Assembly: GCF_008087625.1 (NCBI RefSeq)
Contig: NZ_CP042997.1
Coordinates: 6,014,001-6,078,000, forward strand
Origin: Aquisphaera giovannonii
GTDB lineage: Bacteria > Planctomycetota > Planctomycetia > Isosphaerales > Isosphaeraceae
Direction: 5' to 3'
DNA: 64,000 nucleotides
Positions 57,601-64,000 of the stretch are shown here, one piece after another. Numbering within the stretch: the stretch's first letter is position 1; each line of letters opens with the position of its first letter. The notes beneath the pieces are model-generated. The model was not told where the DNA came from, searched no databases, and saw nothing but the letters and a program-made list of their open reading frames with translations. The translations under genes were made by a program, and so were the position numbers.

Positions 57601-59022
57601 TCATCGAGGCGAGGTCGCGGCCTCGACCCGCGTGAGGTTGCCGCCGCCGTCGGCGACGATGGCGAGGAGGCGGGGGCGGGCGCCGGCGGGGCGGAGGGGG
57701 AGCTTGACGTCGAGGGTCTGGGAGCGGCCCTTCAGCTCGGCGCCGCCGAGGACGGTGTCGCGCACCTGGTCGAGGAAGACGACGGCCCGCAGGGCGCGGT
57801 CGTCGGCCGCCTTGAGGTGGACGACGGCCGAGGCGGAGGGGGACGAGGCCGCCTGGAGGCGGGCCTCGGCCGTCGGGGGGAAGTTGTCGGTGCGGTCGAC
57901 GTCGGGGAACAGGTGGCGGGAGGCGAACAGCAGGCGGGCGTTTTCGGGCGAGAAGGCGACGGGGCGGGTCCTGGGAGGGGTGGAGGGGTAGTTCAGCTTG
58001 AGGCGGCGGAAGCCCTGGCCCATGAGGTCGTTGGGCCCGCGGTTGTCGTGGGGGAGGCCGAGGGCGTGGCCGATCTCGTGGACGGTGGCGCCCCAGCCGT
58101 CCTCGATGAACTCGGATCGGGGGGAGTTCATCCGTCGGGTACCGAGGGCGGCGCGGCCCCGGATCGGGGTGGAGTCGCGCAGGTATTTTTTCTCGTCCTC
58201 GAAGGTGCGGGCGCAGAACTCGTCGCGGAGCATCCAGGCGGACATGATCGCCAGGCCGCCGTCGGTCGAGGCATTCGAGCCGACGCCGACCGAGCCGTTC
58301 CACTCGATCGGGGCGGGGCCGGGGTCGTAGGTCTCGGGGAAGAGGACGATCAGGTGGCGGCCCGGCGAGGCGAGGGCGGCGGGGACCTCCTCGGCGATCC
58401 GGTCGAAGTGCTCGAAGGTCGTGTTGAAGTTGGGGGCCTTGTTGTAGTGCGAGGCCGGCATCTTGCCGCGGATCAGGCGGACGATGGGCCGGCCCTGGGC
58501 GTCGGCCTCGAAGGGGAGGCCGGCGGTCGGGTGCCCCTTGGCGGCGAGGTCGGCGCGGTAGGCGTCGTTGACGAATTCCATGACGACCCGGATGCGACGC
58601 TCGTAGCCCTCGATCGGCTCGCGGTCGGTCGGCACGAAGTAGGCGAGGCGGACCTTCCAGTCGGTCGGCATGAAGCGGATCGAGGCCGGCAGCGCCGCCT
58701 TCTCGATCCAGCGGCCCCGGGCCCAGGCCCGCCAGGCCTTCGACCCGCGCATCCGGATCTCGGCCGAGTCGTCGTGGACCCTCAGCCCGATGTCGCGGCC
58801 AGGGTCGAGCAGCTCGACCGTGTCGGCCGACCGCGACGTCTCCACGAACCGATAGCGATCGACGCCGTCCACGTACTCGGCCCAGACATTCGCATAATCG
58901 TGGATGAGCGCGCTCTCTTGGCCCTCGCCATTGCGGGACAGGAAGGCGTCCCGATCGGGAGCCGCGCCGAGGGCGAAACCGGAGACCAGGGCGATCAGGA
59001 GGCGGGCGAGTCGGTCCGGCAT
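57601..59022 (-). CDS. Exported metzincin-like zinc metalloprotease
   Basis: A 473-residue protein with a signal peptide (MPDRLARLLIALVSGFALG). The zinc site is HEIGHALGLPHD (metzincin form HExxHxxGxxHD) and the Met turn may be NDLMGQGF a few residues on. Upstream it has KMPASHYNKAPNFNTTFEHF and SNASTDGGLAIMSAWMLRDE. After the zinc site a beta-domain (about 380-473) follows, DDRALRAVVFLDQVRDTVLG. It most resembles secreted planctomycete proteases related to M10/M12. It would cut proteins outside the cytoplasm. ATG 59022. Confidence 0.82.
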   Translation of the reverse strand: MPDRLARLLIALVSGFALGAAPDRDAFLSRNGEGQESALIHDYANVWAEYVDGVDRYRFVETSRSADTVELLDPGRDIGLRVHDDSAEIRMRGSKAWRAWARGRWIEKAALPASIRFMPTDWKVRLAYFVPTDREPIEGYERRIRVVMEFVNDAYRADLAAKGHPTAGLPFEADAQGRPIVRLIRGKMPASHYNKAPNFNTTFEHFDRIAEEVPAALASPGRHLIVLFPETYDPGPAPIEWNGSVGVGSNASTDGGLAIMSAWMLRDEFCARTFEDEKKYLRDSTPIRGRAALGTRRMNSPRSEFIEDGWGATVHEIGHALGLPHDNRGPNDLMGQGFRRLKLNYPSTPPRTRPVAFSPENARLLFASRHLFPDVDRTDNFPPTAEARLQAASSPSASAVVHLKAADDRALRAVVFLDQVRDTVLGGAELKGRSQTLDVKLPLRPAGARPRLLAIVADGGGNLTRVEAATSPR

Positions 59023-59490
59023 GGCGTCCGTGTTCCTTCCGAGCGGACTCGCGGGCGGGTCCGAGGCACCTTGCGTGCGAGTCAGCCCGGCCCCTCACGC
59101 CCGAGGCCCGGCGAGGCATCCTGCCGATCATACCGACCTCGCCCGCACCGGCGTCAACACGGGGGAGCTTCGCAGTCAGGCCGGCAATCAGGACATGATG
59201 AGAGGCAATGCGGCAGAGCGGCGGATGAGATCGACTCGCGACGGGACCGCGAGTATCCCTGGCTTGTGTGGTCCGCTGTTGAGAATCAGGACCTCCCGTT
59301 TGAACGCCTCCCCGCCGGCCCGATCCGGCTGTGGGTGCTTTCGCCGCTCGGGATCGGCGGGGCGTTTGTGATTTCGCTCGCGCCATGCGTGGCCCTCGGG
59401 CCGGATCGCGAGACGGACGTAGATCGGGGTGGTACGTCGAGGCGCCCGGTAGCCGACCACCCTGGAGGGCGACCGGGCATCCGGTCGGAC
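59023..59490. other. 468-bp gap; part resembles another intergenic sequence
   Basis: No gene was seen. The stretch near 59274-59320 (TCCGCTGTTGAGAATCAGGA) resembles 60938-60985 (TCCGCTCTGGAGAATCAGAA), so a weak dispersed repeat may be present. Confidence 0.35.
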
Positions 59491-59940
59491 TTACGCCCTG
59501 GCGGCCGGCTTCTGGCGGAAGCTGATCCCCATCCGGTTGAACGCGTTCATCGCGGCGATGGTGATCGTCAGGTCGACGAGGTCCTTCGGATCGAATGCCG
59601 CCGATGCCGCCGCATAGGCCTCGTCGGAGGCGTGCGTCTCGCCGACGCGGGTCACCTCTTCCGCCCAGGCCAGCGCCGCTCGCTCCTGGTCGGAGAACAG
59701 GTACTCCGCCTCGTGCCATACGGGCACCAGGAGCACCTTGTCGACCGTCATGCCCCCCTTGATCAGGTCGCGTGAGTGAAGGTCGATGCAGTAGGCGCAG
59801 CCGTTGACCTGAGAAACCCTCAGGAAGACGAGGTGGATGAGCTGGGAGGGCAGATTCGTGCCGCTCGTGACGAAGTGGTGGAGGCCGCCCAGAGCGTTCT
59901 TCCCGTCGGGTGAAATCTGCATCCAGTTCGCGCGACTCAT
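59491..59940 (-). CDS. Carboxymuconolactone decarboxylase / AhpD-like protein
   Basis: A 149-residue AhpD-fold protein. It has MQISPDGKNALGGLHHFVTS, then the redox motif VNGCAYCIDLHSRDL with a CxxC pair and His, as in AhpD-like peroxidase partners. WAEEVTRVGETHASDEAYAA and TITIAAMNAFNRMGISFR are the usual downstream helices. It likely reduces peroxides or belongs to the wider CMD group. ATG 59940 has AGGAAGG upstream; the frame continues to 59997 without a ribosome site. Confidence 0.87.
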   Translation of the reverse strand: MSRANWMQISPDGKNALGGLHHFVTSGTNLPSQLIHLVFLRVSQVNGCAYCIDLHSRDLIKGGMTVDKVLLVPVWHEAEYLFSDQERAALAWAEEVTRVGETHASDEAYAAASAAFDPKDLVDLTITIAAMNAFNRMGISFRQKPAARA

Positions 59941-60088
59941 GGCCTTCCTTCCTCTCGAGATTGGTGACGGCCGACAAGCCCGGCCGATCAGCAACATGGA
60001 CGAAGGAAGGGGGTCAATTTGTGACAGGGCCCGCGAAAGTGCTGGCGGTCGGGCCGGTCAGGGGCCAAAAAGGGGGGGCCGATCGGAG

Positions 60089-60265
60089 CCATCGGGCCAT
60101 CGGGGCCATCCACCTTTCGCGGGCCATCGGGGCCATCCACCTTTCGTGGCGGGCCATCGGGGCCATCCACCTTTCGTGGCGCCGATCGGGGCCATCCACC
60201 TTTCGGGTCCCAGAAGGTGAACCCTTTCAGGTCCAGAAGGTGGGTGGTCCCTTTCAGGTCCCTGA
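60089..60265. repeat. Four-unit tandem repeat and related module
   Basis: CGGGGCCATCCACCTTTCG recurs at about 60101, 60128, 60158 and 60187, spaced 27-30 bp. Just after it lies CAGAAGGTGAACCCTTTCAG, and then AGAAGGTGGGTGGTCCC with CTTTCAGGTCCC (60228-60262). A near copy of the last module lies at 62709-62738. No long ORF is supported here. Confidence 0.75.
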
Positions 60266-60273
60266 GTGCCGAG

Positions 60274-60393
60274 ATGTTCCGACTCGAGAATGAACTGAAC
60301 CAGATGGAGCAGCCATACCAGCAGGCGAAGCGGGAGTACGAGGCCCTCGGCACGACCCCGACCCTCGTCGTCCTGGACGGCCAGACCAGGTGA
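60274..60393 (+). CDS. Short ORF, possible remnant of a larger gene
   Basis: ATG to TGA encodes 39 residues: MFRLENELNQMEQPYQQAKR, then EYEALGTTPTLVVLDGQTR. The amphipathic Gln/Glu-rich start followed by a beta-like end looks protein-like, unlike random GC-rich sequence. No family is recognised and no ribosome site is clear. It may be the remnant of a longer gene cut by the repeat array before it. Confidence 0.3.
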   Translation: MFRLENELNQMEQPYQQAKREYEALGTTPTLVVLDGQTR

Positions 60394-61266
60394 GTCGCCG
60401 GGGTGGCGATGACGATGGATGCCGGGGAGGTCAGGTGGCTGACCGGGATCACCGCCTTTCGTTCGAGACAGCTTAACCCTGGGGTGTTGGAAACAGGCGG
60501 TTTCCGGCGGCGTTGACGAGAGATCGCGATGGCCCTGTCCGTTTCGCCAACCGAGGCCGAGGAGCGAAGATATCTCCCTCTCCCGCTCGGCGGGAGAGGG
60601 GTGGGGTGAGGGCGGTGTGGGCCCTCGCCCGCCGACCGATGGCCGATGCCTCGGCCGCCGTGGCGAGCCCGGGATCGACACGGACCGGTGAGGGTGAGGC
60701 GATCGAAGACCCTCACCCCACCCCCTCTCCCGCAAGCGGGCGAGGGAGAGGAATCTCCGCCCCGCCATGCCACAAAATCCGAGGGATGATCCGATCCGGC
60801 GATCTCCCCCCTTTCAACATCCCAGCCTAACCCTCCCCCACGATGGAGGAGGGGACAGAAAGGTCCGCTCGGCTCGAGTTGTGGGTCACGATAAGCCCTT
60901 TCGGCCCGTTTCGGCCCGTTACCCGTGTACTCCGCTCTGGAGAATCAGAACGCCCCCCTGGAACGCCCCCGCTCCCCCGAAGCGACGCAAGCAAGGAATT
61001 GCTGGAGGTGACCCAGGGACCGGTCCGAGCGCCATTGAGAGCCGACTCCGATTTCCCCCCTGGTGTCGTCCCCCGGGGCCGGTCGACAAGTCCCGTTCGG
61101 CCGGTCGGTCACGGGCCGTATCGGGAAGGGCCGGCTCCCAGTTACGATGGGATGGGATCGGGCGTGGTCATCGCGGTCTCCGGCCAGGACCATCAGCGGG
61201 GACCAACCCGATTCGGACCGTGGCCGACACGTTGCCGCGGCCATACGGCTGCCGAGGAGTTGAGGC
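60394..61266. other. 873-bp gap rich in repeats
   Basis: It contains the palindrome pair D (60575-60751), a lone CCCTCCCCCACGATGGAGGA palindrome at about 60833, and the weak dispersed repeat near 60938. No gene is supported. Its distal part includes an inverted match to the promoter-side repeats of 59270-59320. Confidence 0.4.
60575..60751. repeat. Inverted pair of GC-rich palindromes (pair D)
   Basis: CCCTCTCCCGCTCGGCGGGA with GGGTGGGGTGAGGG at about 60577-60612, and the opposed CCCTCACCCCACCCCCTCTC with CCGCAAGCGGG near 60710-60740. It is the clearest of the four pairs. Confidence 0.7.
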
Positions 61267-62015
61267 ATGCCGCTCCACGACTGGTCTCGCGTCGATGCCG
61301 CGACCTTCCACGACTTCCACCGGGGATGGACGATCGAGATCCGCAATGCCCTCAACGCCGGAATCCTCCCGGACGGCTACTTCGCCATGGCCGACCGGCG
61401 CGTCAGCGGCCCGGAGCCGGATGTCGTCGCGCTCCAGCTCAGGGGGCGCATCCCTCCGGTGGCATGGCCGTCGCGGAGACGCCGCCGCGGATCAAGCAGG
61501 CGGCGCGGGTCGAGACCGAGGCGGCCGCCTATGCCCGGCGGGCCGATCGCATCGCGATCCGTCACGGGCTCGGCCGCGTCGTGGCGATGATCGAGATCGT
61601 CTCGCCCGGCAACAAGGGCAGCAAGCACGCGATCGCCTCCTTCGTCGCGAAGGCGGCGGACTTCCTCCGCAACGGGATTCACGTTCTGGTGATCGATCCC
61701 TTCCCGCCCGGCCCCCGCGACCCGTCCGGCATCGCCCAGGCCATCTGGGATGAGCTCATCGGCGACCCCCTCCCGCCCCGGCCCTCCGACCAGCCCCTGA
61801 CCGTCGCCGCCTTCGACGCCGGCGAGCCCCTGGTCGCCAACGTCGACACCCTCGCCGTCGGCGATTCCCTGCCCGAGGCCCCCCTCTTCCTCGCCCCCGG
61901 GTGGTACGTCAACGTCCCCCTCGAGGCCACCTATCTCGCCTCCTGGCGAGTCACCCCGCGCCCCATCCGCGACCTCCTCGACACCCCCGCTCCGAGAGGC
62001 AAGCCACCGGCCTGA
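61267..62015 (+). pseudogene. Frameshifted or internally deleted DUF4058 gene
   Basis: The first part, frame of 61267, reads MPLHDWSRVDAATFHDFHRG, WTIEIRNALNAGILPDGYFA and PEPDVVALQLRGR, an intact DUF4058 N-terminus. From about 61460 the matching sequence continues in a second frame: GGMAVAETPPRIKQAARVET, GRVVAMIEIVSPGNKGSKHA, FLRNGIHVLVIDPFPPGPRD and YVNVPLEATYLASWRV. The join falls near 61450-61470, and a short stretch normally present between the parts is missing. So one deletion or frame change has broken the gene. The family has no known function and is common in planctomycetes and cyanobacteria. Confidence 0.8.
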
Positions 62016-62088
62016 ACCAGACTCCCTGCTCCCTCGACCAGGCGAAGCTCCGCTTCACCGGCAAGACCCAGTCAGAAAGCAAAGTCCG

Positions 62089-62738
62089 CGGAAAACTGGA
62101 CTGACACCGATTTCCCTTCGCTTCCGGAAAACTGAACTGACACCGATTTCCCTCTCGGAAAACTGAACTGACACCGATTTCCCCTCTGAACTGACACCGA
62201 TTTCCCCTCCTCCCGCGGAAAACTGAACTGACACCGATTTCCCCTCCCGGAAAACTGAACTGACACCGATTTCCCCTCCTCCCGGAAAACTGAACTGACA
62301 CCGATTTCCCCTCGCGGAAAACTGAACTGACACCGATTTCCCCTCGGGTGAGCAATCACCCGGGGCGACTCGGCCCGAGGCTCCCGCGAAATCTAGCTGC
62401 GTCCCCGTTTCGGCTCCTAGCTGCGTCCCCGTTTCGGCTCCCGAAATCTAGCTGCGTCCCCGTTTCGGCTCCCAGAACGGCGATGGTCGTACGAGAAGTA
62501 ACTCGAAACTCGGTCTGACCCCGAGGCTCCCGAAACTCGGTCTGACCCCGAGGCTCCCGACCCCGAGGCTCCCCGAGGCTCCCGCGAAATCTAGCTGCGT
62601 CCCCGTTTCGGCTCCGCGTCCCCGTTTCGGCTCCTAGCTGCGTCCCCGTTTCGGCTCCCTTTGGACGGCCCCCGTCCCCTTTGGACGGCCCCGTCCCCTT
62701 TGGGCGGCCCAGAAGGTGGGTGGCCCTTTTCAGGTCCC
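62089..62738. repeat. Mosaic cluster of five short direct-repeat families
   Basis: Family a: eight units with GAACTGACACCGATTTCC (62095-62345). Family b: six units with AGCTGCGTCCCCGTTTCGGC (62388-62470 and 62585-62660). Family c: units with ACTCGGTCTGACCCCGAGG (62502-62580). Family d: three units with CCTTTGGACGGCCC or CCTTTGGGCGGCCC (62659-62710). Family e: one CAGAAGGTGGGTGG with TTTTCAGGTCCC. Several units are cut short and joined end to end. Sequences of this type resemble REP-like sites tied to RAYT transposases; no such gene is in the window. Confidence 0.8.
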
Positions 62739-62863
62739 AAGCGAAGCGGCTAGCGGGTACATCCGCTCACAGGTATACTTGACTCAGCCTCAACCATGGT
62801 CGCTAAGTGGCGTGCTTGGACGGCGAGGCCGGCTGCGGCTAGGACGATCGGAGAAGTTAAGTA

Positions 62864-63430
62864 GTGGGCTGGAAACGAACCGAAGAAATAGGATCGTTAT
62901 CGTATGAATGTGGCCACTGTGGCAGGCTGGTGTCGCCGAAAGAAGGCTACAAGTACGACGGAGCCAATCACAGGATATACATTTGCCCGGGATGTGACAA
63001 GCCGACGTTCAGACAATGGACGACGTACGGTTCAGATAGGTATTATCCTGCTCCCGCCTTCGGACGCAGTGTGGCTCATTTGCCGGATGACGTAAAGATA
63101 GTGTATGAAGAAGCTCGTATGTGTATGACGGTTGCGGCGTATACGTCTGTAACGCTGTGTTGCAGGAAACTCCTCATGAACATCGCCGTTACTGAGGGGG
63201 CGCCTTCAAATGGAAGTTTCGTCCAATATGTGAATTTCCTGGACACCAATAACTATATCCCACCAAAAGGCAAGGCTTGGGTGGACTACATCCGCCTCAA
63301 AGGCAATGAAGCGACCCACGAAATTCATCCAATGAATAAGGAGGATGCAGAGAGCCTACTGACTTTCGTTGAGATGTTGCTGCGGTTTGTTTACGAATTC
63401 CCGATGAAGACTCCGCCTGCCAGCCCATGA
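62864..63430 (+). CDS. DUF4145 domain-containing protein with zinc ribbon
   Basis: A 188-residue protein starting at GTG 62864 with GGAGAAG upstream. Near the N-terminus CGHCGRLVSP and ICPGCDKPTF supply four zinc-binding Cys. The DUF4145 part follows: YEEARMCMTVAAYTSVTLCC, RKLLMNIAVTEGAPSNGSFV and YIRLKGNEATHEIHPMNKED with the HEI-HP core, ending LLTFVEMLLRFVYE. The family is often seen next to restriction or other defence genes. GC content drops sharply here (close to 50% by eye), so transfer is likely. Confidence 0.85.
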   Translation: MGWKRTEEIGSLSYECGHCGRLVSPKEGYKYDGANHRIYICPGCDKPTFRQWTTYGSDRYYPAPAFGRSVAHLPDDVKIVYEEARMCMTVAAYTSVTLCCRKLLMNIAVTEGAPSNGSFVQYVNFLDTNNYIPPKGKAWVDYIRLKGNEATHEIHPMNKEDAESLLTFVEMLLRFVYEFPMKTPPASP

Positions 63431-63692
63431 CGTAGAGAAAGCAAATGGGCTTACATATTCATGCACAGGCAAAAGGGATCGCATTCATGCACAGGCACAA
63501 GGGGCCAGGAGCCCAATCGATATTGTCATGGCTTCATCAGGCTATCCTGGCCCGTACTCGCACGTGTTTATCGACTCGTCCGACATTCGTCGATTGATCT
63601 CCCGACCCCTTTCCGCTCAACCATAGGGTGCACGGACACCGTAATGGTTTGCCAAGGCCAATCCATCCTGCGCGATTGAGGGAGCGATCGAG
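63431..63692. other. Low-GC gap with a short direct repeat
   Basis: CATTCATGCACAGGCAAAAG (63457) and CATTCATGCACAGGCACAAG (63482) form a 25-bp-spaced direct repeat. No gene was seen. The ribosome site GAGGGAG lies just before the last gene. Confidence 0.5.
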
Positions 63693-64000
63693 ATGCCATA
63701 TCACGCGAACGTGATCAGGATTTTCATTGCCTCACCGGGCGACGTGAATGATGAGCGTAGGGTTATACGCGAAGAGATCCACGAATGGAACGTACGGCAT
63801 TCCGAGAGAGAGCGGACGGTATTGCTTCCTGTCGGTTGGGAAACACACGCCACGCCCGAGATGGGTGAGCGTCCCCAAGCGATCATCAACCGCCAGGTGC
63901 TCGTGGGATGCGACCTTCTGCTGGCGGTCCTTTGGACTCGCATCGGTAGCCCGACGGGCGTTGCCCAGAGCGGTACAATAGAAGAAATCCAAGAGCATCT
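63693..64000 (+). CDS. DUF4062-like protein, 3' end outside window
   Basis: The first 102 residues are visible from ATG 63693, behind GAGGGAG. They read IRIFIASPGDVNDERRVIRE, then WNVRHSERERTVLLPVGWET, HATPEMGERPQAIINRQVLV, GCDLLLAVLWTRIGSPTG and SGTIEEIQEH. This is the DUF4062-type domain, a Rossmann-like fold near TIR/NTPase-linked stress and defence proteins. The enzyme or sensor domains normally fused after it would lie beyond the window. Base composition matches the DUF4145 gene, not the chromosome. Confidence 0.8.
   Translation, partial: MPYHANVIRIFIASPGDVNDERRVIREEIHEWNVRHSERERTVLLPVGWETHATPEMGERPQAIINRQVLVGCDLLLAVLWTRIGSPTGVAQSGTIEEIQEH

Follow-up and report, generated by a model that had tools for sequence, protein, structure and literature searches.

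A mosaic array of putative TIRYT transposase end repeats in Aquisphaera giovannonii and its one-sided layout

The TIRYT transposases, or TIRtrons, are described as bearing terminal inverted repeats (TIRs), which are known as single, dimeric, or grouped copies (Di Nocera 2013, PMC3733652). They probably correspond to subclass 2.1 of the TnpAY1 proteins (Quentin 2018, PMC6006769), which by a table in that source is equal to group 1 of Bertels. Proteins of subclass 2.1 have the HuH motif NHVH or NH[YF]H, the Y motif YIELNP or Y[IV]HLNP, and a median length of 238 aa, and Quentin et al. did not find REP-like sequences (REP, repetitive extragenic palindrome) at their genes (PMC6006769). For the GTAG repeats of the related REP-associated tyrosine transposases (RAYTs), clusters that are tandemly reiterated with flanking segments of variable length have been reported (PMC3733652). 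Here we analyze a 650-bp array of short repeats, of five families named a to e, in a 64,000-nt stretch of A. giovannonii DNA (the window; G000:C1:6014001-6078000, in a genome of 10.5 Mb). The identity of its units as TIRs is very likely. For the statement as a whole, namely that end repeats of TIRYTs (Y1/HuH enzymes of Quentin subclass 2.1) are stacked in the array, which grew in place by nicking, copying, and rejoining, we consider the chances somewhat better than even.

Array units and candidate cognate transposases

The 650-bp stretch contains 694 pairs of identical 12-mers, compared with 0.17 on average, and never more than 6, in 200 dinucleotide shuffles. The mosaic described by the original prediction, which was made from the letters alone, is therefore real, and its counts of eight family a units and six family b units were reproduced. 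The smaller families amount to four c units (two full and two truncated), a pair of d units with a stub, and one e unit, and the short GTC/GAC core and purine-rich end that had been pointed out are both present. All units of the array have the same orientation when read on the minus strand. A CRISPR array, already dismissed in the original prediction, is ruled out, as the unit spacing is 10 to 37 nt, the units abut, and there are no spacers.

Seven matches to the Pfam family Y1_Tnp (PF01797) were found in the genome, six of them above the family cut-off. None of the seven Y1 genes lies in the window, so the array is an orphan. A family a unit (GGGAGAAATCGGTGTCAGTTCATTTTTC) is located about 60 nt upstream of the ATG of the Y1 gene at G000:C1:8353160-8353498(-), and a family b unit (GGAGCCGAAACGGGGACGCAGCTAG) upstream of the ATG of the Y1 gene at G000:C1:6648944 (6649k). 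An array of its own precedes the ATG of the gene at 8354k, with an inverted copy at the stop codon. The sequence evidence thus supports families a and b as the end repeats of TIRYT transposases, which are Y1/HuH enzymes of the IS200-like type and relatives of RAYTs. The original prediction had ascribed the array to repeated activity of a RAYT-like enzyme, had called for a search for a Y1 gene with the same ends, and had held that the idea would fail if the families occurred only here and the genome had no REP-type transposase. With seven PF01797 genes, one preceded by an a unit and one by a b unit, this is not the situation in A. giovannonii.

The part of that claim which stands concerns families a and b, which are also found elsewhere in the genome: family a has 14 sites at four loci (at most two mismatches; none in the control), with a dispersed single site at 5923395 (two mismatches), and family b has seven exact sites at three loci. 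Family c, with two exact sites, and family d, with one site within two mismatches of its 20-nt pattern, occur in this genome only in the window array, so their identity as TIRs is suggested by analogy of layout and core. A tblastn search with the four TIRYTs of this genome against 43 loci (L189-L231) gave no cognate gene for family c and a TIRYT only at L195, which is the family b gene; exact family c cores are present in four relative genomes, and the fourth exact c site, G010:C5:16817, lay outside the tblastn set. No cognate gene for family d turned up. By the same analogy, families c, d, and e may have cognate TIRYTs elsewhere. The whole array was absent from all 78 other relatives searched (one genome per species), and the plasmid and phage collections gave three plasmid matches, all below 60% identity, and no phage match. 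An Rfam search of window positions 58000-64000 also gave no match.

Four of the seven Y1 proteins (L009-L012) align well with one another and carry TIRYT-class motifs. The three that were scanned (L009, L010, and L012) all passed the Y1_Tnp cut-off, L011 having been identified through the genome search, and one of the three passed that of NCBIfam REP_Tyr_transpos. Their HuH motif is NHFH in three cases and NHWH in one, their Y motif is YIEANP, YVERNP, or YVERNA, and their length is 226 to 243 aa; NHWH and the terminal NA are one-residue departures from the subclass 2.1 motifs, and we assign the proteins to the class. They also share a conserved C-terminal part, the region in which the class has a helix-turn-helix-like domain. 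The likeness to TIRYTs lies in the Y1_Tnp domain, the HuH and Y motifs, the protein length, and a GGGGWSAS-like TIR upstream of the gene. In TIRYTs, an inverted copy of the TIR follows the gene. The TIR motif fits in family c (GGGGTCAG) and is one letter off in families a (GGTGTCAG) and b (GGGGACGC). In this genome, an inverted downstream match is 21 nt long at L010 and 9 nt at L011, absent at L009, and a doubtful overlap at L012. Among the TIRYT loci compared, an inverted downstream match of at least 9 nt was found at 88 of 113, some of them by chance, with 300 nt of downstream flank available in 108 of the 113.

Other systems share some features with the array. RAYTs with GTAG REPs and bacterial interspersed mosaic elements (BIMEs) likewise have short repeats tied to a Y1 gene, clusters, and one cognate family per gene, but families a to d have no GTAG foot by eye and lack the canonical REP form, a hairpin with a GT[AG]G or CGTC foot. 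An internal contrast is provided by the GTAG-type array adjoining the Y1 gene L015 of the same genome, whose 38-nt units are regular and not ragged. The IS200/IS605 elements, such as IS608, share the HuH/Y1 chemistry and cleavage near a subterminal structure, whereas the TIRYT side has inverted TIRs, a longer protein with a C-terminal extension, and ragged tandem ends. One-ended transposition of the IS91/ISCR kind, catalyzed by Y2 rolling-circle enzymes, has a fixed start and a variable end; the units here, in contrast, are mostly 10 to 60 nt long and adjoin the source or one another. Two further loci of this genome were noted: the Y1 gene of L014 (G000:C1:5138099-5141347) lies amid dense GC-rich palindromes (GGGAGCCGGCTCCGTCCGGCGACCGG) on both sides, which are REP/BIME-like, and a 3' half is all that remains of the TIRYT at L242 (G000:C1:5027226-5027438), and it contains an in-frame TGA.

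One-sided layout across TIRYT loci

Truncation in the window array is one-sided: in minus-strand sense, bases are missing at the 3' end of units, whereas the 5' end is preserved. The shared first bases are GAGGGGAAATC in family a, with some slack, and GGAGCC in families b and c. The stop points differ, for example GGGGACGC followed by GGAGCC, CTAG followed by GAGCC, and GGGTC followed by GGGAGCC, and the family c units preceding the innermost one have lengths of 10, 15, and 27 from the outer to the inner.

The same layout was found in many loci from relatives and other genomes, including L112, L105, L080, L036, L142, and L166, the TIRYT loci from other genomes being the best 80 of at least 563, with a few identical to loci of relatives. 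A segmentation of L142 that handled both ends alike and presupposed no polarity placed the start of 17 of its 19 non-reference units at a single base and found eight end positions among the 19. At L010 of the own genome, nine of nine units have one start, and their 3' ends range from 22 to 181, the longest reaching into the gene. The spread of left ends was smaller than that of right ends in 23 of 27 arrays and larger in 3, with one tie (p = 9e-5). This set was composed of gene arrays chosen by an automatic top 8-mer rule, among which L041, L087, and L091 are probably not TIR arrays and were kept, and of 12 orphan or window arrays selected by hand, one of which was dropped for having fewer than three cores; among the gene arrays alone, the left spread is the smaller in 13 and the larger in 2, with one tie (p 0.007). 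The downstream arrays that were printed are by eye mirror images, with the outer end fixed and the inner end ragged, most clearly at L141, L163, L069, and L060.

One scan of 110 distinct loci out of 113, in which loci with too little flank were skipped, detected tandem copies in 32 of the 99 left TIR regions and in 25 of the 107 right ends. The same scan of control stretches gave 5 of 98 at -415..-320 and 1 of 95 at -615..-520 upstream, where two of the five and the single match are long TIR arrays (L142 and L010), and none among 110 in either of two stretches inside the gene. A first crude repeat scan (43 of 113 loci) was replaced by this one, as it had mixed in repeats other than TIRs. In relatives, the ragged TIR arrays of L171, L173, L176, and L178 are located at the end of a contig or close to it, so the number of such arrays in draft genomes is probably underestimated.

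The junctions between units are nearly blunt. Among 119 junctions, 51 had an overlap of 0 or 1 nt and 9 an overlap of 2 nt or more, and the rest had a few extra bases, which may reflect slack of the anchor, as we call the shared outer bases; the count leaves out 10 of 129 junctions with an overlap or insert above 12 nt, and the 19 arrays used for junctions and the 29 used for anchors were selected and read by eye in an unblinded manner. These data bear on the main rival explanation, also offered by the original prediction, in which replication slippage or microhomology deletion at hairpin-forming TIRs generates the units with no enzyme. Some TIR units fold better than shuffles as single strands (z of -2.8 for family d and -1.9 for family a), and several window junctions can be read as deletions with 2 to 4 nt shared, the overlaps in family c being 4, 1, and 2. 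However, random deletion would hit 5' and 3' parts alike, while the 5' ends are fixed; the tandem copies are concentrated at TIRs; overlaps of 2 nt or more are confined to the 9 junctions; and for families b and c, in which hairpins are weak, and for the L010 TIR, folding has no clear advantage over that of shuffles. We therefore disfavor slippage and consider it unlikely.

The anchor sequence varies between loci. It is complete in 130 of 148 units and lies 8 to 14 nt 5' of the core, with a median of 11 (29 arrays). The repeated unit extends about 7 nt into the locus-specific flank. Agreement over the 7 nt outside the TIR is 0.65 to 0.84 within arrays, compared with 0.29 to 0.47 between loci, with a permutation p of 0.0005 in four of four testable families. 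This comparison drew on 105-106 chosen sources (the window, the 80 loci, and 24-25 others); a further family had no multi-unit cluster, and its p value carries no meaning. In genome G054, the extra units of the element at 816k repeat its own flank GAGGAG, which is absent from the copies at 823k and 6752k. A long prefix, made up of the left end and part of the gene, precedes the full element in the G054 copy at 386k and in the 8354k copy of A. giovannonii.

The shared flank weighs against the idea that TIR units from elsewhere transposed independently into a hot spot. This would account for several families in one place and for the dispersed family a site at 5923395, but the units of one array have a common flank that units at other loci lack, and those of the window array all point the same way, which makes such an origin highly improbable. 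It also bears on an IS608-like pathway, in which single-strand circles with a fixed left end and an imprecise right end would be excised and inserted beside the same left end. The product would be the same, and members of IS200/IS605 use single-strand circular intermediates (PMC6006769). However, since the units hold locus-specific flank, the excised piece would need to start outside the element, and no motif common to all ragged 3' ends was seen. We judge this pathway even less likely than slippage.

In addition, four near-identical TIRYT elements of about 735-742 nt (L232-L235) are present at different sites of G054:C1, which is evidence of whole-element movement; one of them has a 423-nt prefix copy in front.

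A candidate copying mechanism

Stacks with one fixed and one variable end suggest a nick beside the end sequence, followed by short copying and resealing. In the mechanism that we propose, the cognate enzyme would recognize the TIR and nick the strand about 11 nt 5' of the GTC/GAC core, and the 5' end would pass onto the tyrosine of the enzyme. The free 3'-OH would then be extended over a variable distance to give a copy of the flank-plus-TIR prefix, after which the extended 3' end would be rejoined to the 5' end on the tyrosine. With every round, the array would gain a unit whose 5' end is fixed and whose 3' end is arbitrary. Nicking, copying from the 3'-OH, and rejoining would explain the fixed outer and ragged inner ends, the inclusion of local flank, the nearly blunt junctions, and the mirror image downstream. 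The 3'-OH left by Y1 cleavage could prime replication or resolve the tyrosine link, priming and strand transfer being the two uses of the cut end named for TnpAREP (PMC8266576).

Several observations count against this proposal. No enzyme assay for the TIRYT class was found in the literature searched. The expected ladder, with shorter units outside, is weak (mean rank correlation 0.26; Wilcoxon p 0.047; sign test p 0.63), the correlation being positive in 10 of the 17 arrays used, which are the 19 arrays less the two window b arrays. The mechanism therefore needs a further assumption, either later rearrangement or nicking at inner anchors. In several arrays the anchors are displaced by 0 to 5 nt, and no fixed 3'-end motif was seen at the junctions. 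The search for an inverted right end gave nothing at the gene preceded by the a unit and nothing convincing at the one preceded by the b unit. Finally, GGAGCC is common to families b and c and accompanies family b both here and at its gene, so a purely local flank is not a sufficient explanation. Taken on its own, the copying mechanism, in which nick, extension, and rejoining are all inferred, stands at roughly even odds or slightly below. That TIRYTs in general build their own arrays in this way, by strand-displacement synthesis at both element ends and orphan TIRs, we put forward tentatively, as a proposal a little short of even odds.

Window features and implications

The features of the window are listed in Table 1.

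Table 1. Repeat features in the window (window positions)
Feature	Position	Strand	Description
Family a block	62089..62345	-	Eight TIR units, GAGGGGAAATCGGTGTCAGTTCAGTTTTCCG in minus-strand sense; unit 62186-62210 lacks its 3' part
Linker between blocks a and b	62346..62386	-	GGGAGCCTCGGGCCGAGTCGCCCCGGGTGATTGCTCACCCG; mostly a separate dispersed repeat
Family b block 1	62387..62472	-	Three TIR units, GGAGCCGAAACGGGGACGCAGCTAGATTTCG; the middle one ends after CTAG
Family c block	62504..62583	-	Two full units, GGAGCCTCGGGGTCAGACCGAGTTTCG (62504-62557), and two cut-off units (62558-62583)
Family b block 2	62585..62658	-	Three units; two cut off, after GACGC and after CTAG
Family d	62657..62701	-	Two full putative TIR units, AAAGGGGACGGGG(G)CCGTCC, and a stub fused to family b; unit hairpin -5.9 kcal/mol
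Family e	62706..62738	-	Single copy in this array; kin of a second-array repeat (at about 60230-60262; 91% identity over 33 nt)
Second small array	60093..60262	-, same orientation	GAAAGGTGGATGGCCCCGATGG units and GGACCTGAAAGG units

The dispersed repeat inside the linker (GGGTGATTGCTCACCC...) corresponds, at query positions 254-297, to five other matches in the same genome. The outer GGAGCC is common to families b and c (62504-62658) despite their differing TIRs, and a chimeric or template-switch origin of new families is possible. The second array also has fixed 5' ends and ragged 3' ends by eye; it contains two or three unit types with the outer end GGACC(T/C)GAAAGG or GAAAGGTGG in common and has relatives in the genome at 6543026, 6543184, and 1743260. 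The genes adjoining the main array (62864-63430 and 63693-64000) encode DUF4145 and DUF4062 domains.

The TIRYT enzyme class, its TIRs, and their clustering are already known (PMC3733652, PMC6006769). What these sources, as far as they were available, do not describe for TIRYTs are tandems with fixed 5' and ragged 3' ends, the mirror image downstream, the nearly invariant spacing between anchor and core, and the presence of local flank in the units. No description of the one-ended ragged layout was found in the literature searched, as far as its texts were available, and the polar layout and its breadth across phyla look new. The layout bears on how RAYT-class enzymes spread and multiply short repeats, for which 3'-OH priming and strand transfer have both been named (PMC8266576): as a footprint left in the genome, a polar, flank-including array speaks for local copying and yields a predicted nick position for subclass 2.1. 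If the mechanism is true, it would amount to a DNA-addition activity of a domesticated transposase, of which the genomes of many phyla would hold polar records.
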